Source: a virus. From it: a DNA stretch of 34,914 bases. Of the stretch, positions 5,024-25,471 are shown one piece after another (the stretch's first letter is position 1; each line of letters opens with the position of its first letter). The notes beneath the pieces are model-generated. The model did not search any database, was not told the origin of the DNA, and saw only the letters and a program-made list of their open reading frames with translations. The stretch is taken from positions 1 to 34,914 of the IMG/VR virus record IMGVR_UViG_3300028920_000178, one strand, 5' to 3'. Position numbers and translations under genes: made by a program.

Positions 5024-5380
5024 ATGGCTAAACAAGTAATAAATATTGGAAACCAGCCGAACGACGGTTCAGGCGAAAACCTCAGGAGCGCTTTTGATAA
5101 GTGTAATGATAATTTTACAGAGGTTTACGACGACATACAAACCTTACAAGGCTCACAAGTTACGGCCTCAAGTTTAATAAGAGCTGACTACTCCGTAAGC
5201 GCAAACGGAGGAAACGGTCAGGATATTGCCTTTAGTTCTCAATTTGTAACAAACTACTCTTTAGTAATAATTGATTTTAACGGCTTAGGGGTAGAGGTTG
5301 TAAGTAAGGATGAGGACGGATTTACAATAAATAGTTTAACCTCTGGCACGTTTGGATATTTTGCCGGAATAGAAGTATAA
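5024..5380 (+). CDS. Fibre/baseplate adaptor-like protein (118 aa)
   Basis: The N-terminus (INIGNQPNDGSGENLRSAF then KCNDNFTEVYDDI) is a well-known motif in tail fibre, fibritin and baseplate-associated proteins (general form INIGxxxNDGTGDxLRxAFxKxNDNFxElY). The motif usually marks the part that joins a fibre to the particle. Here it is followed by only about 75 strand-rich residues, so it may be a short adaptor trimer on which the next two large proteins are built. Only 5 nt separate it from the 388-aa fibre gene. Confidence 0.7.
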   Translation: MAKQVINIGNQPNDGSGENLRSAFDKCNDNFTEVYDDIQTLQGSQVTASSLIRADYSVSANGGNGQDIAFSSQFVTNYSLVIIDFNGLGVEVVSKDEDGFTINSLTSGTFGYFAGIEV

Positions 5381-5385
5381 AAACC

Positions 5386-6552
5386 ATGAAAGAAAGTTCA
5401 ATCAATAGGTATTTACTAGCCGTTTTTATAGCCTTGGTACTGGCGTTGTTAATACCAACAACCTGTAAAGCCCAATTATACCCAAATTTAAGAGGGGTTA
5501 AAATTGATTCTTTAGCCTCAAGGGGTGATACAATTTTTATTACAAATCAAAATGGGAGCGTTGCCCGAATATTTACAGTTAACAATCAGCTTTATTTTAA
5601 AGATTCGCAGGGAACTAAAGCCGTTGCAAGTATTGGAGGCGGCGGAGGCGGTGGAATACCGGAGGCACCTATTGACGGCAGCACCTACGGAAGGAATAAC
5701 GCCGCTTGGGTACAGGTAACAGGTGGTGCTTCGGCTGATAGTGTTTATTCAACTTTAACAGCGGAGGACACTTTATTTATTGGTGACGATCAAAATAAAA
5801 TATACAAATCAACATCGGGTTTAACAATTGAGGGCGAAAATAGTAATATAATTTTAGGTGGTGATATTGAGGTTTCGCAAAGGTTAGAAAGTCAAAACGC
5901 TACTGGCCCATTTATAAGAACACAGACAGGCGCATCTACAAACCAGGTTTCATTTGGTGTAGATAAAAGCAATTTAGGTTCGGGTTTTGGAGGCACAGAT
6001 AACCTGCTTGCAATTGTTACAGAAAATGTTGTAAATATGCACTTCAGAAATACTCACAATGAGTCAAGGTTGCCCTTACAACTTCAATATTTATCAACAA
6101 ACCCAACAAGCCCTAATAACGGCTGGATGTATTACAACACAACATCGAACAAATTTAGGTTTTATGAGGGTGGTGTTTGGAACGAGTTTGGAGCTGGCAG
6201 CGGTTCGGCTGATAGTGTTTTACAAAACAGTTCCGACACTTTAATAATGGTTGAGGAAACTTTATACGGCGATGGAACTAACGGAAGTACTGAAATAAAC
6301 ATAAAAGCTAAAACAGGGTATTTTACTGATTCGGTAGGGGTTAATGGCACTTATGTTGATACCATTGTTCAGGTAGAGGATATTATTTTACCACCAATAA
6401 CAGCGGAGCAATATAAACTAAGTGCATTAAATTCAGCGCCAGCCTCAGCTTCTGCAACTGGTACTCTCGGGGAAATAAGGATTACAAGCGATTATATTTA
6501 TATATGCGTTGCTACTGATACATGGGTAAGGGTAGCTATAACAACATGGTAA
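5386..6552 (+). CDS. Tail fibre-like protein with N-terminal signal peptide (388 aa)
   Basis: Residues 1-29 form a signal-peptide-like segment (hydrophobic LLAVFIALVLALLIP, predicted cleavage after CKA before Gln). A seven-glycine hinge follows at about residues 84-90. The body is beta-rich, with fibre-type phrases such as NNGWMYYNTTSNKFRFYEGG, and the end (APASASATGTLGEIRIT, CVATDTWVRVAITTW) is a C-terminal tip seen in many phage fibres. Two similar SADSV...DTL blocks (about residues 115 and 273) suggest internal repetition. The protein is probably receptor-binding. A Sec signal on a virion protein is odd. Either it is exported and acts at the cell envelope, or the segment is a hydrophobic anchor. 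Confidence 0.75.
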   Translation: MKESSINRYLLAVFIALVLALLIPTTCKAQLYPNLRGVKIDSLASRGDTIFITNQNGSVARIFTVNNQLYFKDSQGTKAVASIGGGGGGGIPEAPIDGSTYGRNNAAWVQVTGGASADSVYSTLTAEDTLFIGDDQNKIYKSTSGLTIEGENSNIILGGDIEVSQRLESQNATGPFIRTQTGASTNQVSFGVDKSNLGSGFGGTDNLLAIVTENVVNMHFRNTHNESRLPLQLQYLSTNPTSPNNGWMYYNTTSNKFRFYEGGVWNEFGAGSGSADSVLQNSSDTLIMVEETLYGDGTNGSTEINIKAKTGYFTDSVGVNGTYVDTIVQVEDIILPPITAEQYKLSALNSAPASASATGTLGEIRITSDYIYICVATDTWVRVAITTW

Positions 6553-6553
6553 T

Positions 6554-9500
6554 ATGAGAAAACTATTCAGTATATTATTATTATTAGCCCTAACAATGGC
6601 TTTAGGGTGGGGGCAGGATGGAGTTCCAGGACAAAGATATAACGGCCCAATCCCAAAGAAACTACCATTATCTGAAAGGCAGGAATTTTTCACACATTCA
6701 GGTGCATCTGATAATGATAAAGTGGGTTCTATAAAAATGTATCCTCAAGCCGCTTTATATGATAGCACATTCACCCATACCCTATTAACTAATACTGATA
6801 ATATTTATAGAATATCATCAAATGGATCTGATGCTGATATATTTATAGACGATAATACTAATCTTTCCACAGGTAGTGATAGTATTCAGGTTAGACTAAT
6901 TCAAAACAGCACCGACACAACAGATATATGGGTTGATATACATGTTATTAATCAATCAAATGTTACTTATATAGATTTTAGTATCGGGAGCGGCGGTAGC
7001 GGTACTTTAGGCGATCCTTACGGCTCATGGAACGCACCAGGGGCTAACGACACGGTTTTAATAGCTAGGGGTTCAGAACGTATAGGCGGCAGTATATCAA
7101 TAACTAACGATGGGGTTTTGATTGGAGCATACGGCACAGGTAATGACCCTATTTTTAATTGTAACGGATCATCCTCAAATGCTATATCAGCAACAGGGAC
7201 GGTTCATTTTAGAGATATTCGAGTAACAGGGCGTTCAATTTATGACGTTGAAAGCGTTGGGTCATCTGATTGGATTAATCAATGTATTTACTTCAGTAGT
7301 GGTAGTGATAATTTAAAAATCAGCCATTGCGAGTTTGATAGTGCATATCAAGCGGTAGGTCAAAACACTGGGGATGTAGATTACATGAAGTGGAGTTATG
7401 TACATAACATTGCCAATGATGGTGTTTTTTGGAATAATACAGGAGGTAATACTTCGCAGGGTAATGCTAACCAAGTAAAAGGTAATTATTTTTGGTCTAT
7501 AAACGAAAAGGCATTTATTTACGACAATGAAAACGATGCAGGAGGCGACCCTTGGCAGGGCGATCAGTACGTTATTTATTCCCACAATGCTGTAGATAAA
7601 TCGAACACAAACTTTAAGTTTATATGGATAGGTGGCGGTTACACCAATGAGTTTTATGATAATCTATTTATACCTGGATATGGTAGGCCAGCTTTATATT
7701 CAGCGGGAGTTCAGGGCATAATGAGAGGTAATACTTTTATAAGTGTATCTCCAGAAACAGATGCTATGTTATATTTTAATAATGATGTAACAGATGAAAA
7801 CAGTATTTTTATAGACTGCAATACAGCTATAAGAATGACAGCAGGAGGGACTTATACAGGTAAAAATATAACCTTCCATGATGTTAACACCCTTTTTAAT
7901 CAGGGGAATTATGTAATGACAAACACCTTATTATCTAATTCAACTAATTTAGGTTCTGTTTCAAGTTCAAGTTTTACTTATACACTATCGGATAACTCTT
8001 ATACACCTTCGGGTACTGGAAATATAACAGGTGATGCTGATTTTGTTGATGAAGCTAATTTTATATTTGAATTAAATGAAACATCTGATGCTGTAGATGC
8101 GGGTACAAATGCCTCTTTAAATGAAAATACCGATTATTATAGTGCAGATCGGCCTTACAATGCTCTTTATGATATAGGAGCCTTTGAATATGGAGCCACA
8201 CAATCAACGCCCCCCGTGCAACCTCCATCGACTGATTGCGATAGTGTTTATGTTTATGACTCCGTTCCTGGTAGCGGTGACACTACTTTATACACCTATC
8301 AATTTAATGGTTATACAAGCGGTGATTTATTAACAGATAGCGCAGACTGGACGGAAGTATTAAACGGCGACATGATTATAGGGTCAGGAAATAACGCAGA
8401 TGGTTATGTTGTTAAGCCCTCTGGTACGGTTGGCCAAATTGAAATCGCAAGAAACACAAACTCTTTTGAAGATCACCAATACATTGAGTTTAATAGTTGG
8501 TGGGAAGCTTCCAATATGCAGTTAGGTACAGGGTTAAGATTACAGGGAACTGGCGCAAGTTCTGACGGGTATTTATTGGTTTATAACCCTAACGATGTAA
8601 CAAGGGTTAAAAGGCTTGACGATGGAGATACCACAACCCTAGCCCAAACAGCCACAACACTAGAAACACCCGTAAGATTTGAGATAAATTTAGATGATAC
8701 CCTTAAGGTATATTTTAATGGCTCTTTAGTTATTTCCGTGCATGATGCGACTTACTCAGGGGGTACGCCTGGTATCTATATGAGAGGCCAAAACTACGGG
8801 ACAGATTACAATTACATTGACGAGGTAACAGTTGCTAGTATTGGGGCGGGCGGTAATGTATTAGACAGCACACTAACAGAAAAGCCGCAGATCGACACAG
8901 TAATAACCATATCAGACACAAGCGGCGGCGGCGTGGGTCAGGCGCACATGAGTCTAACCGATTGCGGTAATTCGCCTTATATTGTTAGATGGTCAACAGG
9001 TGCAATTGATACAGTAACGGCTGGCGATACTATTACAGGTTTAACCACTGGTAGTTATTGGGTTTATGCCATTGGTTCAGATAGTGCTTATGGAGATACA
9101 GTTAATTTTAATGTAAGTAATTATATACTACCAACCCCAACAAGACCTGTTAGATATTTATTAAAAAGCGGTAATCCAATAATTAGCTTTAATGGCGCTG
9201 CCTTAGGTATTCCAGAACAACCCGAACCGCCTTTAGATTGGGATAGTTATGCGGTTAATCTAAATGGCGATAATTATTTAACAATAGCGAACAACGATAA
9301 TTTATCTTTTAATAGTGGTGGTTCCGATGAACCTTTTTACATTTCTTGTTTTGCTAAGTTAACGGAAAGAAGTACTGGTTTATTTTCTAAAGTACAAGAA
9401 TACCAATGGAGAGCATTAACCAACGGCATTATTTTAGTAGATTTAATTGACACCTTACAGGCTGCATCTATTGGAAGGCAGACTAGCACTAGCGCAATGA

Positions 9501-10804
9501 CTGGTAAATGGGGTAATTGGGCGCACTATGTATTAACTTACGATGGTTCAGGCACTAGAGCAGGTATAGATATTTATGTGGATGGTGTGGCCGTAGATGT
9601 ATCAGATCGAGGCACAGGAACTTACTCAAACATGGGGCAGCGTGGCAATGATGTATTTATAGGTCGTTTAGACGCAACTTATGAAACCGAAGGATTAATG
9701 ATTGATTATAGAATGGGTAACAGGTATCTAGCTCAATCTGGTGTTGATAGTTTGGGGTTACATCAAATTTTAGGAGATGAAATAGTAATGATACCTCTAA
9801 CAGATGGAACGGGTGAATACGCTGTAAACGTTGCTAATGATAACCCCATGTATGCGGCTAAAGTTACCGAAGATATTGGAGGGGTTATCTGGGATAGTGT
9901 GCAAACTGAATGGGATTATAACAACGATTATGGTTTTACTCAGGTTTTAGTTGATGGTGAAAGGCATATTTTTCCTTATCAAAACGACAGCGTTACCCCA
10001 ACATTCACGCAATTATCAGGGTATTTACTATGGGGGCAAAGCAATGCGGGAGGTTTAGCGGTTGCCGATAGTTTAGACGGTACAATTTATGAAGATGCAA
10101 GGTATCAAATACCTGAATTTGGATATTATAATTACGTTGATGATAGGGTAGAGCCTATTTATAATGGTCAAAACGGAGTAGCTAGTGCAGAACTTCTTGG
10201 TGTTGAACCTCTTCTGGCTTTAAAATATAAAAACGACTCTAAAGAAAGTTTTGTATTAAAATATTCAGTCGGCTCAACCGCTTTAGATTCTTTACCAGTT
10301 TCTTTGGATTGGAACCCTAAAAGCCAAGAGGTATACAGAACCGCAACAGATACTTCTATTTTAGGGTTGTTGGATATATTTGAACGTGGTAGAAATCCAT
10401 TTATAAATACGCTTGTATGGATTCAGGGGGAGAGGGATGCTGAATTGGTTGCGTCTGCACCAAAATATCAAGAAAATCTACAATTACTCTATGATTCTGT
10501 TTCTAATACTTTTCAAGATAACATGAATATTCAGTTAGTAATGTTAGGTAGCCAATATACAGCCACATATCAAAGCACTGTAAGAGATCAACAAACTGCC
10601 TTTGCTATTGCTAATAGCTCGGTTGTAGATACAATTGATACCGATGCCGCTACGTACACAAGTTGCTGCACCCATTATGATGATGAAACTTTTATATGGA
10701 TGGCTGATACTGTCTATAACAGAAGAAACGATATTGTACTACCAACAAATAAGAGTTTTTTAAATAAATATTATAATTCTGTAGAAATCAGAAACAGTAA
10801 ATAA
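6554..10804 (+). CDS. Giant modular carbohydrate-active fibre/secreted protein (1416 aa)
   Basis: Order of parts: signal peptide (residues 1-20, predicted GWG/QDG cleavage); beta-helix (about 138-545, pectate-lyase-type rungs, ending in GAFEYG); concanavalin-like jelly roll (about 579-760); a SprB-like repeat (about 794-857, DCGNSPYIVRWSTGA then ITGLTTGSYWVYA); LamG-like lectin domain (about 895-1060, NWAHYVLTYDGS and IDIYVDGVAV); SGNH/sialate O-acetylesterase-type domain (about 1150-1395) with GQSN near 1160, WIQGERD from 1289 and His 1374 in THYDDE. It probably binds and deacetylates a host surface glycan. The residue three before His 1374 is Cys, where SGNH enzymes normally have Asp. It starts 1 nt after the fibre gene. 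Being Sec-signalled, it may act outside the cytoplasm. Confidence 0.8.
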   Translation: MRKLFSILLLLALTMALGWGQDGVPGQRYNGPIPKKLPLSERQEFFTHSGASDNDKVGSIKMYPQAALYDSTFTHTLLTNTDNIYRISSNGSDADIFIDDNTNLSTGSDSIQVRLIQNSTDTTDIWVDIHVINQSNVTYIDFSIGSGGSGTLGDPYGSWNAPGANDTVLIARGSERIGGSISITNDGVLIGAYGTGNDPIFNCNGSSSNAISATGTVHFRDIRVTGRSIYDVESVGSSDWINQCIYFSSGSDNLKISHCEFDSAYQAVGQNTGDVDYMKWSYVHNIANDGVFWNNTGGNTSQGNANQVKGNYFWSINEKAFIYDNENDAGGDPWQGDQYVIYSHNAVDKSNTNFKFIWIGGGYTNEFYDNLFIPGYGRPALYSAGVQGIMRGNTFISVSPETDAMLYFNNDVTDENSIFIDCNTAIRMTAGGTYTGKNITFHDVNTLFNQGNYVMTNTLLSNSTNLGSVSSSSFTYTLSDNSYTPSGTGNITGDADFVDEANFIFELNETSDAVDAGTNASLNENTDYYSADRPYNALYDIGAFEYGATQSTPPVQPPSTDCDSVYVYDSVPGSGDTTLYTYQFNGYTSGDLLTDSADWTEVLNGDMIIGSGNNADGYVVKPSGTVGQIEIARNTNSFEDHQYIEFNSWWEASNMQLGTGLRLQGTGASSDGYLLVYNPNDVTRVKRLDDGDTTTLAQTATTLETPVRFEINLDDTLKVYFNGSLVISVHDATYSGGTPGIYMRGQNYGTDYNYIDEVTVASIGAGGNVLDSTLTEKPQIDTVITISDTSGGGVGQAHMSLTDCGNSPYIVRWSTGAIDTVTAGDTITGLTTGSYWVYAIGSDSAYGDTVNFNVSNYILPTPTRPVRYLLKSGNPIISFNGAALGIPEQPEPPLDWDSYAVNLNGDNYLTIANNDNLSFNSGGSDEPFYISCFAKLTERSTGLFSKVQEYQWRALTNGIILVDLIDTLQAASIGRQTSTSAMTGKWGNWAHYVLTYDGSGTRAGIDIYVDGVAVDVSDRGTGTYSNMGQRGNDVFIGRLDATYETEGLMIDYRMGNRYLAQSGVDSLGLHQILGDEIVMIPLTDGTGEYAVNVANDNPMYAAKVTEDIGGVIWDSVQTEWDYNNDYGFTQVLVDGERHIFPYQNDSVTPTFTQLSGYLLWGQSNAGGLAVADSLDGTIYEDARYQIPEFGYYNYVDDRVEPIYNGQNGVASAELLGVEPLLALKYKNDSKESFVLKYSVGSTALDSLPVSLDWNPKSQEVYRTATDTSILGLLDIFERGRNPFINTLVWIQGERDAELVASAPKYQENLQLLYDSVSNTFQDNMNIQLVMLGSQYTATYQSTVRDQQTAFAIANSSVVDTIDTDAATYTSCCTHYDDETFIWMADTVYNRRNDIVLPTNKSFLNKYYNSVEIRNSK

Positions 10805-10860
10805 ATTAATAATAATTAATAAAAGAGATTAATGAGCGTTAATTTTTAATTATAAAAAAA

Positions 10861-11217
10861 ATGAAAAAAGTTTTATTTTTATTAGTATTTATTAGCATTG
10901 GGCTATCCGTAAACGCTCAGTCTAAAATAAGAATGGATAAGGAAAGTTTGGGGTTTTGGACAGTAACGGCGGATACAATGCAAATAACAAGCGCGGATCG
11001 TGTAATTAAGGCCGCAATTTACAACCCCTCAACGTCAACCGAAAACGTGAAAATAGAAGGACGCATTTTTACAGTTGACGGAATAGAAACCAACGGGATT
11101 AATTTAATACCAGGCGAGGCGGCAATAAATTTAGGCTTCGACTATGCAGAGTTAGACAGCGTTAAAGTTTATTGTACTGAGGAGGCTTGGATTATTTTAC
11201 TAATTGATAACGATTAA
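10861..11217 (+). CDS. Small secreted protein in virion operon (118 aa)
   Basis: 118 aa. A clear Sec signal peptide (MKKVLFLLVFISIGLSVNA, cleavage before Gln 20) precedes a compact beta-rich domain of about 98 residues (AAIYNPSTSTENVKIEGRIF, INLIPGEAAINLGFDYAELD, VYCTEEAWIILLID). The size and strands recall a small immunoglobulin-like or decoration domain, but I recognise no family. It sits 56 nt after the giant fibre gene, after an AT-rich gap with no convincing promoter. It is one of four proteins of this genome with Ala or Gly then Gln at the predicted cleavage site. Confidence 0.65.
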   Translation: MKKVLFLLVFISIGLSVNAQSKIRMDKESLGFWTVTADTMQITSADRVIKAAIYNPSTSTENVKIEGRIFTVDGIETNGINLIPGEAAINLGFDYAELDSVKVYCTEEAWIILLIDND

Positions 11218-11222
11218 AAAAA

Positions 11223-11744
11223 ATGTATCAGGCGGGTATAAATAGCGTAACACTTTTCGAAAATAAAGGCGTTGATTTTCTTTATTACGACGCTGAAAAC
11301 CTGCGCAATATAACAAACCTAACATCAACAGGAGATCAAATTTATATTGAAAACAATCAACAACCTAAGCTATCAATAAAATCAAGCGTTTCAGATTCGG
11401 GCGAGATTGTTTACGCGTACGACTTTGAGTTTTTTTTATTCGGATTGACAAATGATAACATAACGCTTATAGATAAAATCAAGCGGTCAATCGTTGGTTA
11501 TTGTTTATTGATAAAGTTTTACGACGGGGTTTATAGGTTTTATAATTTACCTTTTAAGTGTAACGAGTCAGAAATAGACACTAACTCAGAAATGTTACTA
11601 AGGTTAAAGCTGAACAATCCGGCACCGTCGTTAATTTCTCACTTGGATTATGTTCCAGAAGTTAATACAACGCCAGTTTATAGAACTGATACAACAATAT
11701 TAACCGCAGATACAACAATATATACCGCTGATTATGCCTTATAA
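11223..11744 (+). CDS. Hypothetical virion protein (173 aa)
   Basis: 173 aa, beta-rich, with no signal peptide. Motifs visible are aromatic strands (GVDFLYYDAENL, VYAYDFEFFLFGL, VYRFYNLPFKC) and a C-terminal short repeat of Thr/Asp type (TDTTILTADTTIYTADYAL, unit about TADTTIYT). The position before the neck-like gene suggests a tail or neck structural role. The 3' end overlaps the next gene by 11 nt in another frame, so the repeat-bearing tail may also reflect the overlap. I do not recognise the family. Confidence 0.55.
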   Translation: MYQAGINSVTLFENKGVDFLYYDAENLRNITNLTSTGDQIYIENNQQPKLSIKSSVSDSGEIVYAYDFEFFLFGLTNDNITLIDKIKRSIVGYCLLIKFYDGVYRFYNLPFKCNESEIDTNSEMLLRLKLNNPAPSLISHLDYVPEVNTTPVYRTDTTILTADTTIYTADYAL

Positions 11745-12168
11745 GGATTTAACAATAAAGCATTTAAGAAACCTTGAAACGGCTATTATTAAAGAAATAA
11801 ACGACAAGGGTTTAAATAGTTCTGGCGAAACTGCATCATCTTTTGAAATTATTAACGGGAATGAGTTAACGGCTAACGAGTCTTTTTACTACCTTGTAAA
11901 CGGGCGCGGGCCTGGTAAATTCCCGCCTCCTCCGAATATACAAGCTTGGGTAAGGCAAAAATTAAATTTACCTGACGAGGAGGTAAACAGCGTATCTTTT
12001 TTAATTGGGCGAAAAATTTCGCAACGTGGTACGAACATATACAACGATAAATCTTTAGGGGTTGACTTGGATAGCCTTATTAACGAAATGACCGAAGCTC
12101 TAACCGACGAGCTGCCAGAAATAGCAGCAAAGGAGGCTTTAAACGTTATAAATAAATTTAGTTTATGA
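11734..12168 (+). CDS. Neck/virion morphogenesis-type protein (144 aa)
   Basis: 144 aa. The central part (YLVNGRGPGKFPPPPNIQAW, then VRQKLNLP, then FLIGRKISQRGTNIY) is a pattern of phage neck/tail-completion proteins of the HK97 gp10 or virion-morphogenesis type: a Gly/Pro-rich turn, a Trp helix, then a segment AFLIxRKIxxxGT. Such proteins join head and tail. N- and C-terminal helices flank it. It overlaps both neighbours (11 nt upstream, 4 nt downstream), so it is part of a tight late operon. Confidence 0.65.
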   Translation: MPYKDLTIKHLRNLETAIIKEINDKGLNSSGETASSFEIINGNELTANESFYYLVNGRGPGKFPPPPNIQAWVRQKLNLPDEEVNSVSFLIGRKISQRGTNIYNDKSLGVDLDSLINEMTEALTDELPEIAAKEALNVINKFSL

Positions 12169-13085
12169 GTTTAACAATAGTTACAAACCCCGTAACAGGG
12201 AGCAAGGGTTTTTTTGCCGGCTTTGATAAAATAGAGTTTGTTTTTAAGCGTGAGGATATTGCTGTAAGCAGTGTAGACGCCGGAACCGGAGGCGCCAGAA
12301 TAAACCATTCAGGGGATTTAACAAGCTATTTGAGTGTTGGCGATACTGTTTACCTTTATAGTGAGGGTACTAATTACACTTATGACTTGAGCGCTGAAAT
12401 TATCGCAATTACGGCGGGGCAAATAACGCTAGACACACCGTTTATTGAAAGTGCTACGGGTGGTTATGCCAATTACTTTAAAAACTACTATGTTGAAATG
12501 CAGCTAGTTAACGCGAGTCTAACAGATGTTAGTTTATTGCCGTTCAACTTACAATCCGACGGCGATCCGGCCGGCAATATTATAATAGATGTTTCAATAA
12601 TAAACGATTTTAACAGGCGCCGAGGCTTAATATCCGAGGGGTTAATTGAGGAAAGTTCGCGAGAATTTAAAGTAAAGTATAAACAGGTGTATGACGGAAG
12701 CTCGGAAAGTTTCACCTTGTTAAGCGGTAACACCTTAATAGCTTTATACTGTACGCAAAACCCCGAAACAGATACTATTTTAAATAACTTCGATTTGCCA
12801 AAAATTTACAAGGGTTATCCGGCACTAATAGCAATAGCGCGAAACGGTAAGGCAAACGGCACAATTAAATTAAGTTATGAAACTCAAAACATTAATAAGG
12901 TCGGTATAAGTAGCAGCGATTTAACCGACTTGGATGGAACATTTAACGGGTTTATCAATTGGCTTTGGGCGGCTGATAAAAGCGTTGAGCCAAACACTAA
13001 ATATATTTTATTTAGCTTGACCGATACAATTGTTGGAGATTTCGCAGCACCAGATTTTGCAGCGCCAGATTTTGTAATAACTTAA
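12165..13085 (+). CDS. Hypothetical tail/baseplate protein (306 aa)
   Basis: 306 aa, strand-rich with few charged helices, typical of tail or baseplate structural proteins. Notable segments: GGARINHSGDLTSYLSVGDT near the N-terminus, NRRRGLISEG in the middle, and a directly repeated pentapeptide at the extreme C-terminus (FAAPD twice, then FVIT). No enzyme motif is visible. ATG at 12165 overlaps the previous stop by 4 nt. I cannot name a family. Position between neck-like and fibre-like genes is the only clue to function. Confidence 0.55.
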   Translation: MSLTIVTNPVTGSKGFFAGFDKIEFVFKREDIAVSSVDAGTGGARINHSGDLTSYLSVGDTVYLYSEGTNYTYDLSAEIIAITAGQITLDTPFIESATGGYANYFKNYYVEMQLVNASLTDVSLLPFNLQSDGDPAGNIIIDVSIINDFNRRRGLISEGLIEESSREFKVKYKQVYDGSSESFTLLSGNTLIALYCTQNPETDTILNNFDLPKIYKGYPALIAIARNGKANGTIKLSYETQNINKVGISSSDLTDLDGTFNGFINWLWAADKSVEPNTKYILFSLTDTIVGDFAAPDFAAPDFVIT

Positions 13086-13097
13086 AATATTTATATT

Positions 13098-13940
13098 ATG
13101 CCAAACAGAACAACAGTAAAAAGTAATATCGTTACTAAAAACGTACCTTCAGTTACTAACGCTATTTTAACGGATATGCTAAACGCTGAAATTGCCGACA
13201 ACATTAAATTTTTAGAGGACGTTGCTGTAACTCAAGTATCTACAGTAACAAATATAACCGTAGATTTTACCGGAAAGGACAGGATTGACCTAACCAGAAC
13301 GGGCGGCCCTTTAAATATTACTGTCAGTGGCCTTGGCGACGGTCAACAAGTTTACTTACTTGTTACTAAAACCGTAGGGCGCCAAATAAGTTTTATTAAT
13401 GTAACAGACGTTACGCCAGTGCCTTTAAATATAAACAGCCTTAGCGTTGTTTTGTATGAGATCGTTAGAAAATCCTCGCTTTATTATGCTAGGGCTTACG
13501 TGAATACTATTACCGAAGCTACTACCGCCCAAAAGGGGGTTGTTGAAAAGGCTACAGAAGTACAAAGGGACTCCGGCGTACCTGATAAATATATTGACGC
13601 TGAATTATTGCAGGGTATCACAAACGGGGTTAAAATGCAATATCAAGAAATCGGCACTTGGAATATGAATTATTCTGCTTCTGGAGATAGGTTCAAAATG
13701 GTTTCATACGATCCAGTGCCAACGGCTGTTATTGGTTATACAGGTGTTATATTTAACGATAACGGGTCAACTACGCCAATCGAGGGGCATATAGATCCGT
13801 CTGAGGCTTTTAATAGCACAATAAAAGGCTATGTTGAGAACACTCAAAACAGAATACAATTACGATCAAGCTCGGATTATGACAATACCTTTTATGATGG
13901 TAGCAGTAACAGAGGTTATTTAGTTATTTTTTATATTTAA
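13098..13940 (+). CDS. Tail fibre-like protein with phage fibre repeat (280 aa)
   Basis: 280 aa. The segment ATTAQKGVVEKATEVQRDSG, about residues 141-170 and followed by PDKYIDAELLQG, matches the tail-fibre repeat pattern ATxxxxGVVxLATxxExxxG known from many side tail fibres. The N-terminal 130 residues are beta-rich (ITVDFTGKDRIDLTRTGG), and the C-terminal 110 form a probable tip (NRIQLRSSSDYDNTF ... YLVIFYI). It is likely another receptor-recognition or fibre component. It has no signal peptide, unlike the fibre at 5386. Confidence 0.65.
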   Translation: MPNRTTVKSNIVTKNVPSVTNAILTDMLNAEIADNIKFLEDVAVTQVSTVTNITVDFTGKDRIDLTRTGGPLNITVSGLGDGQQVYLLVTKTVGRQISFINVTDVTPVPLNINSLSVVLYEIVRKSSLYYARAYVNTITEATTAQKGVVEKATEVQRDSGVPDKYIDAELLQGITNGVKMQYQEIGTWNMNYSASGDRFKMVSYDPVPTAVIGYTGVIFNDNGSTTPIEGHIDPSEAFNSTIKGYVENTQNRIQLRSSSDYDNTFYDGSSNRGYLVIFYI

Positions 13941-13943
13941 ACC

Positions 13944-14363
13944 ATGGCTAAATTATATGAATATATAACCCCCAAAAGCGAGGTTGATTCAGCTTACGAA
14001 GATTTCGAATATTTGATTCGTTGGATCGGCCGTGATGGTGGCGAATATCTTTACTTATTTTATGACGCTTTAATAATTCAAACGGTTGAAAACAATATTA
14101 TTAATCAGGAGGACGAAAACAGGGTCGAGGCTTTAATTAATAGGGAGCGCAAAGATATAGAGTTAACGGCCGACGATTTAAGTCTAACAGATTTACAGGT
14201 CATTGGTGAAATGTTCGCCAACAAATACGTTACCCGCGTAAGGAAAGACGGTACAGAGGAGCGGTTAGCTTTAGGTTCAAATAGATTAAGGTATCAAAAA
14301 ACGCAAGGCAGATACGAAGTAAAAATAAATGTAACGCCTTCGGACTTGCCAAATATTAAGTAA
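13944..14363 (+). CDS. Hypothetical tail-associated protein (139 aa)
   Basis: 139 aa, acidic first half with helices (ESAYEDFEYLIRW-like, LYLFYDALIIQTVENNII) and a basic second half (VTRVRKDGTEERLALGSNRL). No motif is recognised. It begins 3 nt after the fibre-like gene and ends directly against the ATG of the 583-aa protein (TAA then ATG), so the three are certainly co-transcribed. A small tail-assembly or connector role is possible from its place just before the tape measure region, but unproven. Confidence 0.55.
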   Translation: MAKLYEYITPKSEVDSAYEDFEYLIRWIGRDGGEYLYLFYDALIIQTVENNIINQEDENRVEALINRERKDIELTADDLSLTDLQVIGEMFANKYVTRVRKDGTEERLALGSNRLRYQKTQGRYEVKINVTPSDLPNIK

Positions 14364-16115
14364 ATGGAATTAAGGATAAACGGTATTAAGGCGGAGTTAG
14401 GCGATAGTGTGCCAGCGATAACAAAAAAAAGCGTTGACATAAACAATCCATCTTTACGTTTTATTGATTACACAAATAAATTTCAATTACCAGACACGCA
14501 AATTAATAGAGAGCTTTTAGAAAGTCCTCAGCAAATTGGTAGCAATAACAGAAGCTTTAATAAATTATTTGATTGCACCCTTAACGACGTCTTTAAAATT
14601 TTTGAAGGACAAGGGTTTCTTGAGGACACTCAAAAAGATGTTTTTAATTTTCAACTTGTCGATAAGGCAAAAAACCTATTTAATCAACTAAATATAAAAT
14701 TAAAATCCATATCATGGGACGATAAAGATACCCAACTAACCGAGGCGCAAATAAATACACTTGATTCATTAGATATTGATAATTGCTGGTTTTGGGGCAA
14801 AGCTTGTTACCATGAAAGCGGGCTGCAAATTAATACAGATCAAACAACCGGAAGCGCTAGAACGAAATACAGCCGCCCCGCCTTTAATGTTAACGGTCTA
14901 TTAAATAGAGCCGTTGCCTTAGCTGGTTACACCTTAACCGCACCGGCTAAAAGTTTAGCGATAAGCTCAAACCATGAAAAATTTTATTTTACAAGTTATG
15001 AAAAAAACCTAAATACAACGTATAATGTTTTGGGGTCGCTAGCCTTGTCAGGATTAGACACAAACACCTTCGAGCATGCAGATTTAACAACGGCCTCAAC
15101 CTCTATAAATATAGGTGCATTAAAAACAATTTTCAGAGTAAGGGGGGTTGCATCCTCAACCGCTCAAATTTACATGGTGATTAAAGCAGTTGACGACGTT
15201 GACAGCTCGAAAATTTCAGAAAGTAGATTTTTGTTGCCACAATCAGAGGGTAATATTGATTTTGTTAGTTCTGAGTTTCAGTCCGACAACGGCATGACAG
15301 TTGATATAAGGTTTGAAGGTACGGGCGACGCTATATTTACAAATACTCTTTTATACACTATACACGACGAAAACAGCGCGGATTTATCAACCAACCCATG
15401 GCTTAACTATAAAATAAAAGCCTATGATAATTTACCGGACTTAAACTATCTTGATTTATACCGCCTAATATGTATCGTTTATAATAATTACCACATAGTT
15501 GATAATTTTAATAAAACTATAAGCTTTGGAAGTTTAGCGAACTTAAAGAAATTAAACGCCGTTGATTGGTCGGATAAGCATATAATAAACTCAGAGTTTA
15601 CCGCTGGCAGCATTTCCGGTTTAGCGCAAACCAATAAATTAAGGTATGAAAATGACGAAACAGTCAACAGGGAGCTTGGTGAGTCTAGTTTTTCAACTGA
15701 TAATGAAGCTTTACCGGTTGAAGGTGATTATTTTGTTTTAGATTTTAGTGCCTCGAACGAAGTTGAAATAAATAGCAACAACATAGCCCACGTTTATATT
15801 TACAACGATACAGGGAGAATACCAGATCAAGTAATTAATACGCGTTTGTTCGAGATTGATTCGGATTTACTAACATTTAACCCGATTACATGGCAAAATA
15901 TAAAAACAAATTATTATTCAGATTGGTTTAATTCTTTACATAGTATTAGGTTGATAAATTCACAGTTTAATTTATCGAAGCTTGATTTTTTAGAATGGAG
16001 TGAGGGGCAGTTAGTTTATATAGATTATTATAAGTCTACTTTTATTGTGCTGGAAATAGTTAACTTTATGCCTGGAACACCCACAACTGTTAAAATTTTA
16101 AGATATGGCAGATAA
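14364..16115 (+). CDS. Large tail/baseplate structural protein (583 aa)
   Basis: 583 aa, beta-rich, no signal peptide. Its N-terminus (MELRINGIKAELGDSVPAIT, then DYTNKFQLPDTQINRELLE) is a form I associate with Bacteroidota phage tail proteins upstream of the tape measure. Later parts (IVDNFNKTISFGSL, NAVDWSDKHIINSEF) resemble distal-tail or baseplate hub jelly-roll segments. A distal tail or hub role is an inference from size and from direct contact with the tape measure gene, which overlaps its end by 11 nt. Confidence 0.6.
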   Translation: MELRINGIKAELGDSVPAITKKSVDINNPSLRFIDYTNKFQLPDTQINRELLESPQQIGSNNRSFNKLFDCTLNDVFKIFEGQGFLEDTQKDVFNFQLVDKAKNLFNQLNIKLKSISWDDKDTQLTEAQINTLDSLDIDNCWFWGKACYHESGLQINTDQTTGSARTKYSRPAFNVNGLLNRAVALAGYTLTAPAKSLAISSNHEKFYFTSYEKNLNTTYNVLGSLALSGLDTNTFEHADLTTASTSINIGALKTIFRVRGVASSTAQIYMVIKAVDDVDSSKISESRFLLPQSEGNIDFVSSEFQSDNGMTVDIRFEGTGDAIFTNTLLYTIHDENSADLSTNPWLNYKIKAYDNLPDLNYLDLYRLICIVYNNYHIVDNFNKTISFGSLANLKKLNAVDWSDKHIINSEFTAGSISGLAQTNKLRYENDETVNRELGESSFSTDNEALPVEGDYFVLDFSASNEVEINSNNIAHVYIYNDTGRIPDQVINTRLFEIDSDLLTFNPITWQNIKTNYYSDWFNSLHSIRLINSQFNLSKLDFLEWSEGQLVYIDYYKSTFIVLEIVNFMPGTPTTVKILRYGR

Positions 16116-18585
16116 GACGACAGTCGTAAAAATAGAATACGACACAAACGAGGCGCAGCAAAACATTGACAATCTAGCCTTAAAAATTGACGGTTTAAAG
16201 GAAACTAATAAATTTTTTCAAAGGGAAATAAATAACGCCAGGAAAGACTTAAAGAAAACTGACGAGCAACTAAAGAAAGAGGGCAAAACCAGGGAAAACC
16301 TAATAAAGACTATTAATAACGGAACAGTAAAACTATCAAGAAATAAAGACGCCATTCAAAAAACTAACGCCGAGCGCCGGAAATCAATAAAAGAGTTAAC
16401 GGGTGAAAAATCTGCCTTTGATAAATTAACCGACTCTATAAACGAAAGCACCAAAGAGCAAAAAAAACAAACTGGTATGCTTTCTGGAATGTCGGCGGGC
16501 TTTGGCAACCTTGAAAAATCTATCAGCGCCCTACCAGGGCCAATTGGCGGAGCTGTAACCGGTATAAAAGCAATGACAAAAGCCTCTTTAGCTTTTATTG
16601 CTACCCCTATAGGTATGATTTTGGCCGCTATTGCCTTGGCCGTTATGGCTGTGAAAAAAGCATTTACCAGCTCAGAGGAGGGGCAAAACAAGTATAATAA
16701 AATGATGGGGGTTTTAAATGCTATACTCGGAAACCTTGGCGACTTATTGGCCGACATAGGCGAAAAAATTATCGCGTTTTTTGAAAATCCACAAGAGTCA
16801 TTGAAAAATTTTGGAGAGCTTTTAAAGAAAAACTTTATAAATAGGTTTAAGGGGTTACTAGAATTATTACCAGCCTTGACCGAAGCTATAGGTTTACTTT
16901 TCAAAGGAGAGTTTAAAGAGGCTGGAAAGGTTGCGACTAACGCAGTTATGAAAGTAACTACAGGAATAGATAATTTTACTGATAGGGTTAACAATGCAAT
17001 AAACAAAACAAAAGAGTTTATAAAAGAAAACGAAAGAGAGGCGGCTTTAGCGGCGAAGGTTGCAGACATGAGAGCCAAGGCCGATAAGATTGAGCGTGAT
17101 TTAATTATAAAGCGGGCAGAACTTGAAAGTAAAATAGCCGAGCTTAGGTTAAAGGCAAGGGAGGAGGATAAATATACAGCAGAGGAGCGTAAACAATTCC
17201 TAAAAGAGGCAAGAGATTTACAGGATGGTTTATTAAACGACGAAAAAGAGGTTTTGGAATTAAGGCGCGACGCCATACAGCTTGAAAATACTTTCAGTAA
17301 AACGAATAAAGAAAATAAAATGAAAGAGGCGGAGGCCGTCGCAGCCGTAAGCCAAAAAGAAGCGGAAAGATTTAACCAAGCCAGGCAAGTGCAACGGGAG
17401 TTAATGAGAGTTGATAAAGAAATTGAGGCCGAACAAAAAAGGCAGGCTGAGGAGAAACGCAAAAGAGAAGAGGCTGAACTAAAAAGAAGGGGCGAGGCAG
17501 TCGCTAAAATGGCAGAGCTGAAACATAAAGAGTTGATAAATGAAGCTGCCAACCTTGACGAGTTAAGACAACTAAAAATTGATAAAGCTAACGAGGAGTT
17601 TGCCGCTGAAATGGAAAACGACACCTTGCTAAACGAGGAGCGCGAACTTTTGGAAATGGAGCATAAACAGAGGTTGGCGGAAATAGATAACGAATATTTT
17701 ACAAATAAAAATAAGCAAGAGTTAGAGGCAAAAGAAAACGCTATTAACACTATGACCGAAGTTTTAAGGGAAGCAGGTCAATTTGAAAATAAGCGCGTTA
17801 GTCTTATAGCAGACTCTTTTGATAAAATAGCGGAAATTAACTTTAAAGAACTTCAAAGCAGTAAGGAAAAATACGCTGCAATTGGCGGAGTGGCTCAAAG
17901 CTTAACCGGATTAATAACAGCCGGCAACGCCGCACAAGTTAGCGACTTAGAAAAATCTAAGCAAGCGGAGTTAAAAGCGGTCGGCGATAACGCTTTCGCT
18001 AAGTCAATGATCGAAAAGAAGTACAATAAAAAACTAGTACAACTTAAGAAGAAACAATTTAATGAAGATAAAATTAAAAGCCTTACCGATACCGCTATTG
18101 CTACAGCTTTAGCCGTTGCAAAGGCGCTGCCAAACGTTGCGCTATCCGCTATAGTAGGCGGTATTGGAGCCATTCAGGGAGCAATAATAGCAAGTAAAAG
18201 GCCGCCTAAATTTTCGAGCGATCAGGTTTTCGCTAGAGGCGGAATGATCGGGGGCCGTCCACACTCGCAGGGAGGTACTAAATTTTACGGAGAGGACGGA
18301 TCAAGATTTGAGGCAGAAAGAGGCGAAGCGCTTTTCGTACTTAAAAAAGATGCAGCGGCAGAAATAGCGGCGCTTAGTATGTTAAACGAGTCACACGGCG
18401 GGCGGTCGTTTAGAGATAAGCCAGTAAGTAGGTTGCAGGATGGTGGTACACCTGACATAAGCCCTATTGATATAAACCAGGCCGTTGATAACGCTTTAAA
18501 TAATAAACCGATATTTGTAAGGGTTAAAGATATTGAAACAGGTTTAACTAATTACAATAACGTTAAAAACGTGGGAACAATTTAA
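16105..18585 (+). CDS. Tape measure protein
   Basis: 826 aa. Long charged helical stretches (about residues 5-130 and 310-540, Lys/Glu/Arg/Ala) predict extended coiled coils. Two hydrophobic stretches at about 154-187 (ASLAFIATPIGMILAAIALA) and 655-697 (TALAVAKALPNVALSAIVGG) are typical tape-measure membrane-insertion segments. A Gly-rich C-terminal part (FARGGMIGGRPHSQGGTKFYG) is also common in this class. It sets tail length and helps DNA enter the cell. The length suits a siphovirus tail. The start overlaps the previous gene by 11 nt. The long open frame on the opposite strand is a composition artefact. Confidence 0.9.
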   Translation: MADKTTVVKIEYDTNEAQQNIDNLALKIDGLKETNKFFQREINNARKDLKKTDEQLKKEGKTRENLIKTINNGTVKLSRNKDAIQKTNAERRKSIKELTGEKSAFDKLTDSINESTKEQKKQTGMLSGMSAGFGNLEKSISALPGPIGGAVTGIKAMTKASLAFIATPIGMILAAIALAVMAVKKAFTSSEEGQNKYNKMMGVLNAILGNLGDLLADIGEKIIAFFENPQESLKNFGELLKKNFINRFKGLLELLPALTEAIGLLFKGEFKEAGKVATNAVMKVTTGIDNFTDRVNNAINKTKEFIKENEREAALAAKVADMRAKADKIERDLIIKRAELESKIAELRLKAREEDKYTAEERKQFLKEARDLQDGLLNDEKEVLELRRDAIQLENTFSKTNKENKMKEAEAVAAVSQKEAERFNQARQVQRELMRVDKEIEAEQKRQAEEKRKREEAELKRRGEAVAKMAELKHKELINEAANLDELRQLKIDKANEEFAAEMENDTLLNEERELLEMEHKQRLAEIDNEYFTNKNKQELEAKENAINTMTEVLREAGQFENKRVSLIADSFDKIAEINFKELQSSKEKYAAIGGVAQSLTGLITAGNAAQVSDLEKSKQAELKAVGDNAFAKSMIEKKYNKKLVQLKKKQFNEDKIKSLTDTAIATALAVAKALPNVALSAIVGGIGAIQGAIIASKRPPKFSSDQVFARGGMIGGRPHSQGGTKFYGEDGSRFEAERGEALFVLKKDAAAEIAALSMLNESHGGRSFRDKPVSRLQDGGTPDISPIDINQAVDNALNNKPIFVRVKDIETGLTNYNNVKNVGTI

Positions 18586-18791
18586 TGCAAAGAGATACAT
18601 ATATAAATAGCCGAGCTAAATTTTGCCAAAAAGCAATAAAAAACCCTCAAAATGCAGCTTCTGATTTAAGAGATTTGGCGACAGGATTAGAAAACTGCCG
18701 GAATAGTTCGGAAATAATTTTCGCGCTTTCTGAAATTTTTCGAGTTCACGAGATTACCATTGAAAGAGATTTAACAAGGGAAATTACATGA
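18585..18791 (+). CDS. Small hypothetical protein after tape measure (68 aa)
   Basis: 68 aa, helical, mixed charge, with no recognised motif (RDTYINSRAKFCQKAIKNPQ, LATGLENCRNSSEIIFALSE). The start ATG shares its A with the tape measure stop (TAATG). The stop TGA falls inside the palindrome at 18783-18797, so this is the last gene before the head promoter. Its role is unknown. It is kept because of the coupled start and coding-like composition. Confidence 0.55.
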   Translation: MQRDTYINSRAKFCQKAIKNPQNAASDLRDLATGLENCRNSSEIIFALSEIFRVHEITIERDLTREIT

Positions 18792-18797
18792 TGTAAT
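18783..18797. promoter_or_regulatory. Palindromic operator-like site upstream of the head operon
   Basis: ATTACATGATGTAAT is a perfect 7+1+7 inverted repeat. It covers the stop codon of the preceding gene and the place where a -33 box would be for the -7 site at 18818. A site of the same design, TTGCATGATGCAA, lies at 26407. Both share the core CATGATG with A/T-rich flanks, so one regulator could bind both. This is inferred from symmetry alone. Confidence 0.5.
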
Positions 18798-18817
18798 AAA
18801 TTTTATTAATCATAATT

Positions 18818-18825
18818 TATATTTG
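18818..18825 (+). promoter_or_regulatory. Promoter -7 box for head/lysis operon
   Basis: TATATTTG is a perfect match to the Bacteroidota -7 element TAnnTTTG and ends 5 nt before the ATG at 18831. The transcript would be leaderless or nearly so. No TTG is present 19-20 nt upstream; the palindrome at 18783-18797 occupies that place instead. Confidence 0.55.
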
Positions 18826-18830
18826 TAATA

Positions 18831-19880
18831 ATGAAAGAGTTTGACTTAATAGGTGATATTGGTCTGGATATTACAGCCCCCTTGGTACAAAGCATGCTCG
18901 ATAGTGCGGGCGGCGAAGATGTAAATTTTTATATTGCCAGTTTAGGCGGTAGTTTACACGACGGCAGCGCTATTAATGGGTTAATAGAAAAATACCCAGG
19001 AAAAACAAAGGGTTTTATTATCGGAAACACGGCCAGCGCCGGCACAATTGCGATTTTAGGTTGTGACGAAGTCGTAGTTAATGACAGTGCAGCTTTTTTA
19101 ATTCACAACTCAAGCGATCCAGAAGGAGGCAACGCCGTAACGTTAAGAAAAAAAGCGGAGCAATTGGAAAGGCTTGACAAATTAATGCTTAATATTTACG
19201 CAAAAAAAACAGGTTTACCTGAGGATCAGTTAACGGAACTTATGAATAAAGAGGATTGGCTAACGCCGTCCGAAGCTTTAACTTATGGATTTGTTGATTC
19301 GGTCGAGCAGTCTTATAAAGCCGTTGCGTATATGTCCAATATTAAACTTTCAAAAGATTTACAAACTAAATTAATAAACAAAATGAATTTTTTTAACCGG
19401 AAAAAAGAGGATGAACCCGTTGTTTTGAACACGGTAAACCTTAAGGACAAAGGCCAGATATTTTTCAGCGGTGAAACGTTGGAGGTTGAAGCTGAGGTCG
19501 GGCTAATTGGAGCGGCTGCAATTGAGGACGGTGAGTACCCACTTGAGGACGGTCGTATTTTAGTTGTTAGCGGCGGAGCTGTAACAGAAATAAAAAGCGA
19601 GGAGCCAAAAGAGGACGATACCGAGGAGTTAAACGCTGAGGCTATTATTGAAGCGGTTGCAAAGGCTAACGCTGATGCTTTCGCAGAGTTTGAGGCTAAA
19701 GTTGGCAAATTAATCGAGGATAAAATTACCGAGGTTAAAGCGTCAATCGGAAGTAATCACACGCCCCCAAAAGGCAAAGTAATTGATCCAAAGCAGGGCG
19801 ACAAAAAAAACGTCCATGCAAAAGTAGCTGAGGTAACTACAAAAATTCGTGAAAATATCGAAGCAAGCCGAAAAGCTTAA
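18831..19880 (+). CDS. ClpP-like head maturation protease with fused scaffold-like C-terminus
   Basis: 349 aa. Residues 1-165 are a ClpP/S49-type serine protease: oxyanion strand ASLGGSLHDG, nucleophile Ser69 in GNTASAGT, His92 in FLIHNSS, and Asp near 159 (GFVDSV). This part cuts scaffold and capsid N-terminal regions during prohead maturation. Residues about 195-255 form a small acidic beta-like region. About 260-349 is an Ala/Glu/Lys-rich helix (AEAIIEAVAKANADAFAEFE) ending in a basic tail, as in scaffolding proteins. A protease-scaffold fusion directly before the capsid gene is known in several phage lineages and fits here. ATG is 6 nt after the -7 box. Confidence 0.88.
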   Translation: MKEFDLIGDIGLDITAPLVQSMLDSAGGEDVNFYIASLGGSLHDGSAINGLIEKYPGKTKGFIIGNTASAGTIAILGCDEVVVNDSAAFLIHNSSDPEGGNAVTLRKKAEQLERLDKLMLNIYAKKTGLPEDQLTELMNKEDWLTPSEALTYGFVDSVEQSYKAVAYMSNIKLSKDLQTKLINKMNFFNRKKEDEPVVLNTVNLKDKGQIFFSGETLEVEAEVGLIGAAAIEDGEYPLEDGRILVVSGGAVTEIKSEEPKEDDTEELNAEAIIEAVAKANADAFAEFEAKVGKLIEDKITEVKASIGSNHTPPKGKVIDPKQGDKKNVHAKVAEVTTKIRENIEASRKA

Positions 19881-19913
19881 TTATTAACATTTAAAAATTT
19901 AATACTTAGCATT

Positions 19914-20855
19914 ATGTTAACATTAGCAAACAGCAATTACAACGGCGAAGCTTTAGAAAATTTGTACGTTGTGGCCGGAGTAGGAAACGAGGTGATAGAA
20001 AAGGGCGCCGCGTTACTGCACACCGATGTATCTACAAAATTGGCTTTGCCAAAATTAAGCCAAACCTCTGATCCAATAGGCGACTATATTACTGACACCC
20101 CTTCGGGCGTAACTGTAACAACAACCTATGCAGAAAGAGAGTTGGAGCCTAAAAAAATGACTCTGTACGAGGAGTTTAATCCAACTACATTTCACGACCT
20201 TTGGGATCGTTTTAAGTCGGTTGGTGACTTCACTAACATTGAGCTAAACACCGAGTTCTTAAATGCCATTATCAACCGTTATAAAAACGGCATAGGCACT
20301 CAAATGAGTAAACTATTCTGGCAAGGTGATACAACTTTAGCAGCCAACAACGCATTAAATAAATTTGATGGGCTTGTCACCAGAATGAAAGCAGACGGCA
20401 ATGTAATTAAGCCAACGCCAGCCGGTAATATTACCACTTCGAATTTTATGGATGTTTTGGCCTCTTTTTGGTCAGCAATTCCAGATCATTTTATTGATGA
20501 TCCTGACTTTGTCCTTCATGTAAACACAACCGATTTTAAAACCATGCAAACCGGTAACACTGCCTTACGTCAATCGTTTGTTGGTGTGTTCGGTATGGAC
20601 TTGGAAACCATGTACAACATGAAAAGGATTAAGCATTTCCAGGGCATGAAAAGGCACCATATTGTAGGGTTGAAAGCTACCAATAGCGATAATGATAGCA
20701 ATTCACATCTCGGCGTTTGGGTTTCTCCTGAGGATGAAAGCGTTGTTGTTGACAAAGTTTCTAACAATGGCCGTAAATGGTTTGTGCGCGTTGATATGAA
20801 AGCAGACGCTAATTACTCCGCTTCTGAGGAGGCTGTTTTATACGAACCAGCATAA
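19914..20855 (+). CDS. Major capsid protein (HK97-fold type)
   Basis: 313 aa. It follows the protease directly, which is the normal position. Features fit an HK97-fold shell protein without a long N-terminal delta domain: an extended N-terminus, an E-loop-like region (TTYAERELEPKKMTLYEEFN), a helical spine (NTEFLNAIINRYKNGIGTQM), and a P/A-domain part with AALRQSFVGV-type helices (TGNTALRQSF) and closing strands (KWFVRVDMKADANYSASEEA). There are no enzyme motifs. With the scaffold on the protease, this gene completes the prohead set. It probably has the highest expression of the operon. Confidence 0.85.
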   Translation: MLTLANSNYNGEALENLYVVAGVGNEVIEKGAALLHTDVSTKLALPKLSQTSDPIGDYITDTPSGVTVTTTYAERELEPKKMTLYEEFNPTTFHDLWDRFKSVGDFTNIELNTEFLNAIINRYKNGIGTQMSKLFWQGDTTLAANNALNKFDGLVTRMKADGNVIKPTPAGNITTSNFMDVLASFWSAIPDHFIDDPDFVLHVNTTDFKTMQTGNTALRQSFVGVFGMDLETMYNMKRIKHFQGMKRHHIVGLKATNSDNDSNSHLGVWVSPEDESVVVDKVSNNGRKWFVRVDMKADANYSASEEAVLYEPA

Positions 20856-20879
20856 CCATAAAAAGAAAGGGATAGCTTT

Positions 20880-21296
20880 ATGAAAAAGATATTTATATTA
20901 ACGTTATTTACGTTAGTTTTAACAATCAGCGCAAGCGCTCAAAAGTATTACTATACACCAGCAGACGACACTATTGAGGGAGATACAAATTATATCCCGT
21001 CAAGTGCTGGTTATGATTTAAGAAATGTTGTATCGGGCGCGTTTTCTTTTACGTTTACTCATACAGATGTAGCCGACTCACTTAGTTACGCGGGAATTGA
21101 ATACCGAAATAGCACCTCAGGAACGTGGACGGCCTATACTGGTAATGCTGTTTTAAGTTCAACAACAACCGACGGACAAAGCCGGATTTATATCACTACT
21201 CCATTAATTGATAAATTTGTTCGGGTTCGTTTGTCCTGCGCTGCCGGCGATACGGTTGCAATTACAAACCAAGCTTTAATGCTTAAGGAGGATTAA
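20880..21296 (+). CDS. Small secreted protein beside capsid gene (138 aa)
   Basis: 138 aa. A Sec signal peptide is evident (MKKIFILTLFTLVLTISASA, cleavage before Gln 21). The mature part is beta-rich and resembles a decoration or fibronectin-like domain (GAFSFTFTHTDVADSLSYAG, TTDGQSRIYITTPLIDKFVR, VRLSCAAGDTVAIT). It lies 24 nt after the major capsid gene, where decoration proteins are common, but a decoration protein that is exported before assembly would be strange. It may act at the cell surface. It is one of four +1 Gln signal peptides in the structural modules. Confidence 0.65.
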   Translation: MKKIFILTLFTLVLTISASAQKYYYTPADDTIEGDTNYIPSSAGYDLRNVVSGAFSFTFTHTDVADSLSYAGIEYRNSTSGTWTAYTGNAVLSSTTTDGQSRIYITTPLIDKFVRVRLSCAAGDTVAITNQALMLKED

Positions 21297-25447: not shown

Positions 25448-25471
25448 AAGCCTCTTTTAGGGGCTTTTTTT
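25448..25471. terminator. Intrinsic terminator between convergent genes
   Basis: A stem AAGCCTC / GGGGCTT (7 bp including one G-T pair, loop TTTTA) is followed by a run of seven T. It ends the head-lysis operon. It also overlaps the stop codon of the minus-strand metallophosphoesterase; in that direction the T tract is poorer (TAATTATT), so termination may be weaker. Confidence 0.8.

Follow-up and report, generated by a model that had tools for sequence, protein, structure and literature searches.

The usual assumption is that tailed phages make and assemble their fibers and capsid accessory proteins in the cytoplasm. Why, then, should a phage carry export signals on genes that lie inside its structural modules? 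The question is raised by IMG/VR virus record IMGVR_UViG_3300028920_000178, whose positions 1 to 34,914 (34,914 nucleotides in all, hereafter the window) include four open reading frames (ORFs), starting at 5386, 6554, 10861, and 20880, for which an earlier note had described a Sec signal peptide (SP) followed by Gln at position +1. We confirmed this description for each of the four. The reading that we favor, and regard as rather probable, is that these genes encode outer virion proteins built in two compartments, which would be exported, O-glycosylated, and finally docked at lysis.

SPs were detected with a simple three-region rule of our own (n-, h-, and c-regions), not with SignalP. By this rule, no ORF of the window other than these four combined an SP with Gln at +1. 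Cleavage was predicted at MKESSINRYLLAVFIALVLALLIPTTCKA/Q (ORF 5386), MKKVLFLLVFISIGLSVNA/Q (ORF 10861), MKKIFILTLFTLVLTISASA/Q (ORF 20880), and MRKLFSILLLLALTMALGWG/Q (ORF 6554), the last of which, Gly-Trp-Gly, is a weaker site. When the rule was applied to the off-frame and antisense ORFs of the phage group, it was passed by 1/373, and by none with Gln at +1, whereas the gene-like ORFs of the same group yielded 36 SPs, 29 of them with Gln; the occurrence of SPs and Gln in these phages thus exceeds chance. Since Gln is exposed after 71% of the SPs of Bacteroidota on average (PMC5837995), Gln at +1 can be taken as the mark of a Bacteroidota host.

SPs were retained at the same genomic slots even though the mature parts of relatives had diverged to about 20% identity. 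It is SP function that is conserved, while SP sequence drifts, as seen both in the gene following the capsid gene (18/18) and in aligned fiber N-termini. Inspection of the four proteins revealed neither a lipobox nor a second hydrophobic segment or membrane anchor. For nine SP proteins including these four, no tail model of the C-terminal sorting domain of the type IX secretion system (T9SS) matched at E 0.1, and on this absence we ruled out the T9SS as the secretion route. Export of the SP proteins is, as far as their sequences can tell, a near certainty.

A further property of these proteins, not spotted in the earlier note, is their richness in O-glycosylation sequons. The general O-glycosylation motif of Bacteroidota is D[ST][AILVMT...] (PMC8698959). 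In the mature parts of 33 SP proteins, which fall into 13 unrelated BLAST clusters and nearly all of which were enriched, D[ST][AILVMT] occurred 162 times versus 45.6 expected from composition (observed/expected ratio, O/E, 3.55; z 17.5); a repeat on contigs fetched later gave 43 versus 9.2 (O/E 4.66, z 11.8). The residues enriched after D[ST] were A, I, L, V, M, T, and C, all within the published motif. Three other residues of that motif (S, G, and F) showed no enrichment, D[ST] followed by any other residue was depleted (0.60), and motif variants (reversed, E, N, G, K, and D[NGQ]) remained at 0.74–1.05.

The enrichment was coupled to the presence of an SP. Within the same phages, the O/E was 1.03 for SP-less structural proteins, 1.03 for other genes, and 1.02 for SP-less fiber-cassette genes; it was 1.01 for Cellulophaga virion proteins identified by mass spectrometry (MS), 0.74 for cyanophage fibers, 1.24 for exported proteins of E. 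coli, 1.16 for those of a Bacteroidales metagenome-assembled genome (MAG), and 1.26 for those of a Bacteroidota-wide sample, the controls overall ranging from about 0.56 to 1.3. In terms of median sequon density per 100 amino acids, the phage proteins scored 2.19, compared to 0.24 for Bacteroidota exported proteins (Mann–Whitney P 1.5e-8). These control sets, along with the motif permutations, rule out export as such, beta structure, and an abundance of Ser, Thr, and Asp as the cause of the enrichment. We consider it the strongest independent sign that the predicted SPs are working ones, and O-glycosylation of the SP proteins appears likely.

Two predicted lipoproteins may be mentioned here. 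At 1109–1408 of the window, upstream of the terminase, there is a fifth exported candidate, 99 amino acids long (LVFC/S) and with two DT sequons. The fiber cassette of phage L139 encodes another (7332–7817), in which five sequons were counted; the motif enrichment may therefore extend to exported lipoproteins of these phages.

Where the four genes are found is informative as to what they might do. Three of them lie in what we term slot A, between a T4-gp9-like connector gene (5024) and a conserved tail gene (11223). The connector (5024..5380, plus strand) is a nonexported baseplate/fiber protein that matches phrog_677 (baseplate wedge tail fiber connector, E 4e-13) and cyanophage gp9. A half-by-half comparison of such connectors distinguished two types of N-half and two types of C-half, occurring in all four combinations. 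In 9/9 phages the type of the C-half, but not that of the N-half, agreed with the presence of an SP or an SP-less fiber downstream, and each of the SP-type C-halves retrieved later was likewise accompanied by an SP fiber. The connector of the window has the C-terminal half of the SP-fiber type.

The putative exported fiber next to it (5386..6552, plus strand; 388 amino acids, SP 5386–5472) has a mature N-terminus reading QLYPNLRGVKIDSL..DTIFITN and contains 8 sequons versus 1.5 expected. Its C-terminus matches the phage tail protein phrog_17312 (E 1.4e-08), a module that also ends cyanophage structural proteins. The SP fibers, that of the window included, have some 25 residues in common past the cleavage site, followed by unrelated bodies. 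This shared anchor takes the form Q-[LIV]-D-I-T-K-R-x-V..DS[LIV]..D[ST][LIV] and variants thereof; in the aligned N-termini, Gln+1 and DITKR.V were invariant, and no residue inside the SP was. A common mature N-terminus with swapped bodies is the pattern of fibers held by their N-terminal end. The product of 5386 therefore combines several features of a tail fiber or receptor-binding protein, namely a position after a fiber connector, fiber-type domains, and a conserved N-terminus with a variable body. At the opposite end of the protein, the last 31–50 residues (6445–6552) match the C-terminal ends of structural proteins from cyanophages and from Sphingomonas phage PAU at 62–74% identity, and the sequence suggests an old, or exchanged, fiber tip across host phyla.

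The second gene of the slot (6554..10804, plus strand; 1416 amino acids, SP 6554–6613) presumably encodes an exported carbohydrate-acting protein or spike, with a sialate O-acetylesterase-like SASA domain at the C-terminus (Pfam, E 5e-12), a choice-of-anchor Q domain (NCBIfam choice_anch_Q, E 6e-08), and 26 sequons versus 7.8 expected. A small, probably exported protein (10861..11217, plus strand; SP 10861–10917; 2 sequons) is encoded at the 3′ end of the cassette. Its homologue in phage L142 is 44% identical over the mature part, bears an SP of its own, and retains both sequons, one of them with Ser/Thr and Val/Ile swapped; AlphaFold modeling from these two sequences gave low confidence (pLDDT 44). 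The slot is closed by the nonexported conserved tail gene (11223..11744, plus strand), with homologues at the same location in G002–G005, G008, G010, G011, and G014. What lies in between varies by phage and includes LamG-like proteins, a SASA esterase (in G008), and a fiber that has YadA-like repeats and matches virion proteins; the fibers of G002 and G011 have no SP. The phage collection contained no cultured relatives of the fiber anchor and no homologues of 6554, 10861, or 20880.

The fourth gene occupies a different place. The earlier note had grouped it, too, with the fiber apparatus. ORF 20880 (20880..21296, plus strand; SP 20880–20939; 3 sequons) lies immediately downstream of the major capsid protein gene (19914..20855, plus strand; phrog_11320), in a position that we call slot B. 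Among contigs encoding a capsid protein with 42% or more identity to that of the window (range 42–73%; the window and L105 are counted in), the next gene after the capsid gene encodes an SP/Gln protein in 18/18, and in many of them another gene of this kind follows some 400 bases further. A full scan of 11 related contigs placed 31/33 SP/Gln proteins in slot B or slot A. Across 24 slot-B proteins, 18–69% identical to that of the window, the invariant positions were Gln1, Pro88, Arg95, Asp104, and Lys116. Since residue 105 is Thr in 23 of them and Ser in the remaining one, with V, A, or C as the third sequon residue, a sequon is present at 104 in 24/24, and 19/24 have a second one near the N-terminus.

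The AlphaFold model of the mature protein is a jelly roll of the beta-sandwich type (pLDDT 86, pTM 0.78). Its matches in the PDB included XepA of a phage, lectins of the TNF-like type, and capsid domains of viruses, and their Z values differed by no more than about 1 unit; for XepA (6i56), Z was 10.5 and the root-mean-square deviation was 2.6 over 102 residues, tied with many unrelated jelly rolls. With such diverse matches scoring nearly equally, the fold does not decide the function of 20880, and we discarded it as a proof thereof. Like decoration proteins, 20880 is small, accessory, and predicted to be a beta-sandwich, and its gene adjoins the capsid gene. As for the capsid protein itself, it is a distant relative of that of Hankyphage (24% identity over 99%); a C-terminal BACON fusion, found in many relatives, is absent from the window's group.

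A distant phage, L274 (IMGVR_UViG_3300033153_001348), has another capsid gene and another gene order. It shows an SP-type connector C-half, on a different N-half, followed by an SP fiber with the QIDITKR anchor, as well as an SP/Gln gene after the capsid gene. In its sister phages, the position of connector plus SP fiber is taken by a one-piece, SP-less fiber, whose N-terminus weakly resembles the connector N-half of L274 (permutation z 4.3–5.3 in 3/5). In L274, the fiber seems to have been divided into an anchor that stays in the cytoplasm and a body that is exported. This lineage treats the slot-B gene as optional (2/9), which fits an accessory decoration gene. L274 and L285–L293 are sisters that differ in fiber architecture and in the presence or absence of an SP gene after the capsid gene.

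If the four genes do encode outer virion proteins, assembly might proceed as follows. The cytoplasm would, as usual, be where capsid, tail, and gp9-like connector form. The distal fibers (5386, 6554, and probably 10861) and the jelly roll 20880 would be expressed late and then exported through Sec. By analogy with known pathways, cleavage by signal peptidase I at Ala/Gln should expose Gln, expected to turn into pyroglutamate through the host cyclase (PMC10653852), and the host's general system would O-glycosylate the proteins in the periplasm at D-[ST]-[AILVMT]. There they would wait until lysis, when they could meet and bind the virions, the fibers docking through their conserved mature N-terminus of about 25 residues on the C-terminal half of the connector, while the jelly roll would bind to capsid or neck. 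More tentatively, exported fibers glycosylated by the host could be captured at lysis by an adaptor half that sits on a cytoplasmic connector, the adaptor-plus-anchor unit could spread between unrelated phages, and the virion surface could carry host O-glycans.

The earlier note had left open whether the proteins were free secreted factors or parts of a fiber apparatus finished after export. The latter is now better supported; the former has become less likely because there is no lipobox, anchor, or T9SS domain, because the genes occupy fiber and post-capsid slots, and because they are paired with a nonexported connector. Free factors of this kind would be secreted or periplasmic late proteins, glycosylated like host proteins and never found in the virion, serving to clear receptors (the acetylesterase-like protein), to control superinfection, or to coat the cell debris that is released. 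Such roles would agree with functional SPs and sequon enrichment, with the SASA esterase domain in 6554 and the G008 gene, and with the interpretation of Q-rule genes in Porphyromonas gingivalis phages as host-modifying (PMC10367356). They are harder to reconcile with the slot positions, with the phage tail, structural, and spike domains of several of the proteins, with the swapped bodies behind a common mature N-terminus that are usual in virion-anchored fibers, and with co-inheritance with a cytoplasmic connector half, and no outer-membrane sorting signal was found. Overall, we deem free secretion rather unlikely.

It is also conceivable, but quite improbable, that virion proteins acquired SPs and are assembled in the cytoplasm all the same, either from a nonexported pool or after SP removal by a prohead protease; the SP-like N-termini of P. 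gingivalis phage capsid proteins are thought to be cut by such proteases (PMC10367356). This leaves unexplained the sequon enrichment, the presence of Gln at +1 in 24/24, and the contrast with SP-less fibers in the same slot. Moreover, from the SP to the C-terminal end, 20880 has no in-frame Met that could start a cytoplasmic form. Finally, D-[ST]-hydrophobic triplets could be a structural habit of beta-rich fibers, and the SPs could be relics of captured secreted host genes. The slot-B model does place the sequons at loop-to-strand junctions, and Bacteroidota secreted proteins are a plausible source of such genes, but beta-rich SP-less fibers (same slot included) show no enrichment, host exported proteins reach only 1.16–1.26, and all slot-B relatives keep their SP, making this a very improbable explanation.

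A number of points weigh against assembly in two compartments. The GWG/Q cleavage site of 6554 is short of ideal, and the jelly-roll fold, being common to lectins, capsid proteins, and cytokines, does not settle what the modeled protein does. Connector C-half and fiber gene are neighbors, and because of this adjacency linked inheritance could mimic, or contribute to, their partnership. The exported proteins of the hosts are themselves barely enriched in the sequon. None of the cultured relatives examined has the trait, and the virion proteins of Cellulophaga phage phi13:1 identified by MS/MS have no SP.

Regarding the host, a capsid homologue was found on one short contig binned as a Bacteroidales MAG, and a prophage look-up returned one distant match among 395 Bacteroidota genomes. 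The SP trait is not a general habit of Bacteroidota phages, which is ruled out by the SP-less structural genes of phi13:1, BT2, and BV283P3; structural genes were also SP-less in Bacteroides and Phocaeicola isolates with related portals. In the literature, we found no report that virion proteins of Bacteroidota phages are exported or O-glycosylated. The nearest precedent that we found are the Nixviridae phages of P. gingivalis, which have Q-rule SP genes of unknown function, read as host-modifying (PMC10367356).

If true, the proposed scheme would introduce a second compartment in phage assembly and a virion that wears host glycans without encoding glycosyltransferases, with a bearing on how Bacteroidota phages recognize receptors, adhere, and are seen by immune systems. 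SP plus sequon density offers a simple genomic test for finding similar phages.

Two other genes of the window deserve a brief comment. The single minus-strand gene (25470–26348) of this plus-strand genome is, by its motifs, a candidate calcineurin-type phosphoesterase, and a peptidase M15-like endolysin, assigned by motif and without an SP (24309–24806), adjoins small holin-like membrane proteins.

As compared to known systems, the slot-B protein resembles capsid decoration proteins of the Soc, Hoc, and Dec type in being a small beta-sandwich accessory encoded beside the capsid gene, optional in a second lineage; it differs from them in bearing an SP and sequons, and its binding to the capsid is putative. 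Hankyphage (Bacteroides phage p00) has the homologous capsid protein (24%) and a ClpP-like protease upstream, but its capsid protein is fused to a BACON domain and its slot B lacks an SP gene; its only SP/Gln protein (20053–20439) resembles a holin and was rejected as a slot-B equivalent. The T4 system of gp9 and long tail fiber is similar in the gp9-like N-terminal domain and in the fiber gene downstream, whereas here the fiber has an SP and the connector is a two-part protein of 118 amino acids whose C-half tracks the fiber type. With the Sec/signal peptidase I "Q-rule" substrates of Bacteroidota (PMC5837995, PMC10653852), the proteins share Ala or Gly at −1 and Gln at +1, but they are phage-encoded and lie within structural modules. 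The P. gingivalis Nixviridae phages (PMC10367356) likewise have genes obeying the Q-rule, yet in the phages described here such genes sit in fiber-cassette and post-capsid slots, are enriched in sequons, and have a partner connector. Like the O-glycosylation substrates of Bacteroidota (PMC8698959), finally, these proteins couple an export signal to the D-[ST]-[AILVMT...] sequon; unlike them, they are encoded by a phage, and their sequons are far denser than in the exported host proteins that were sampled.

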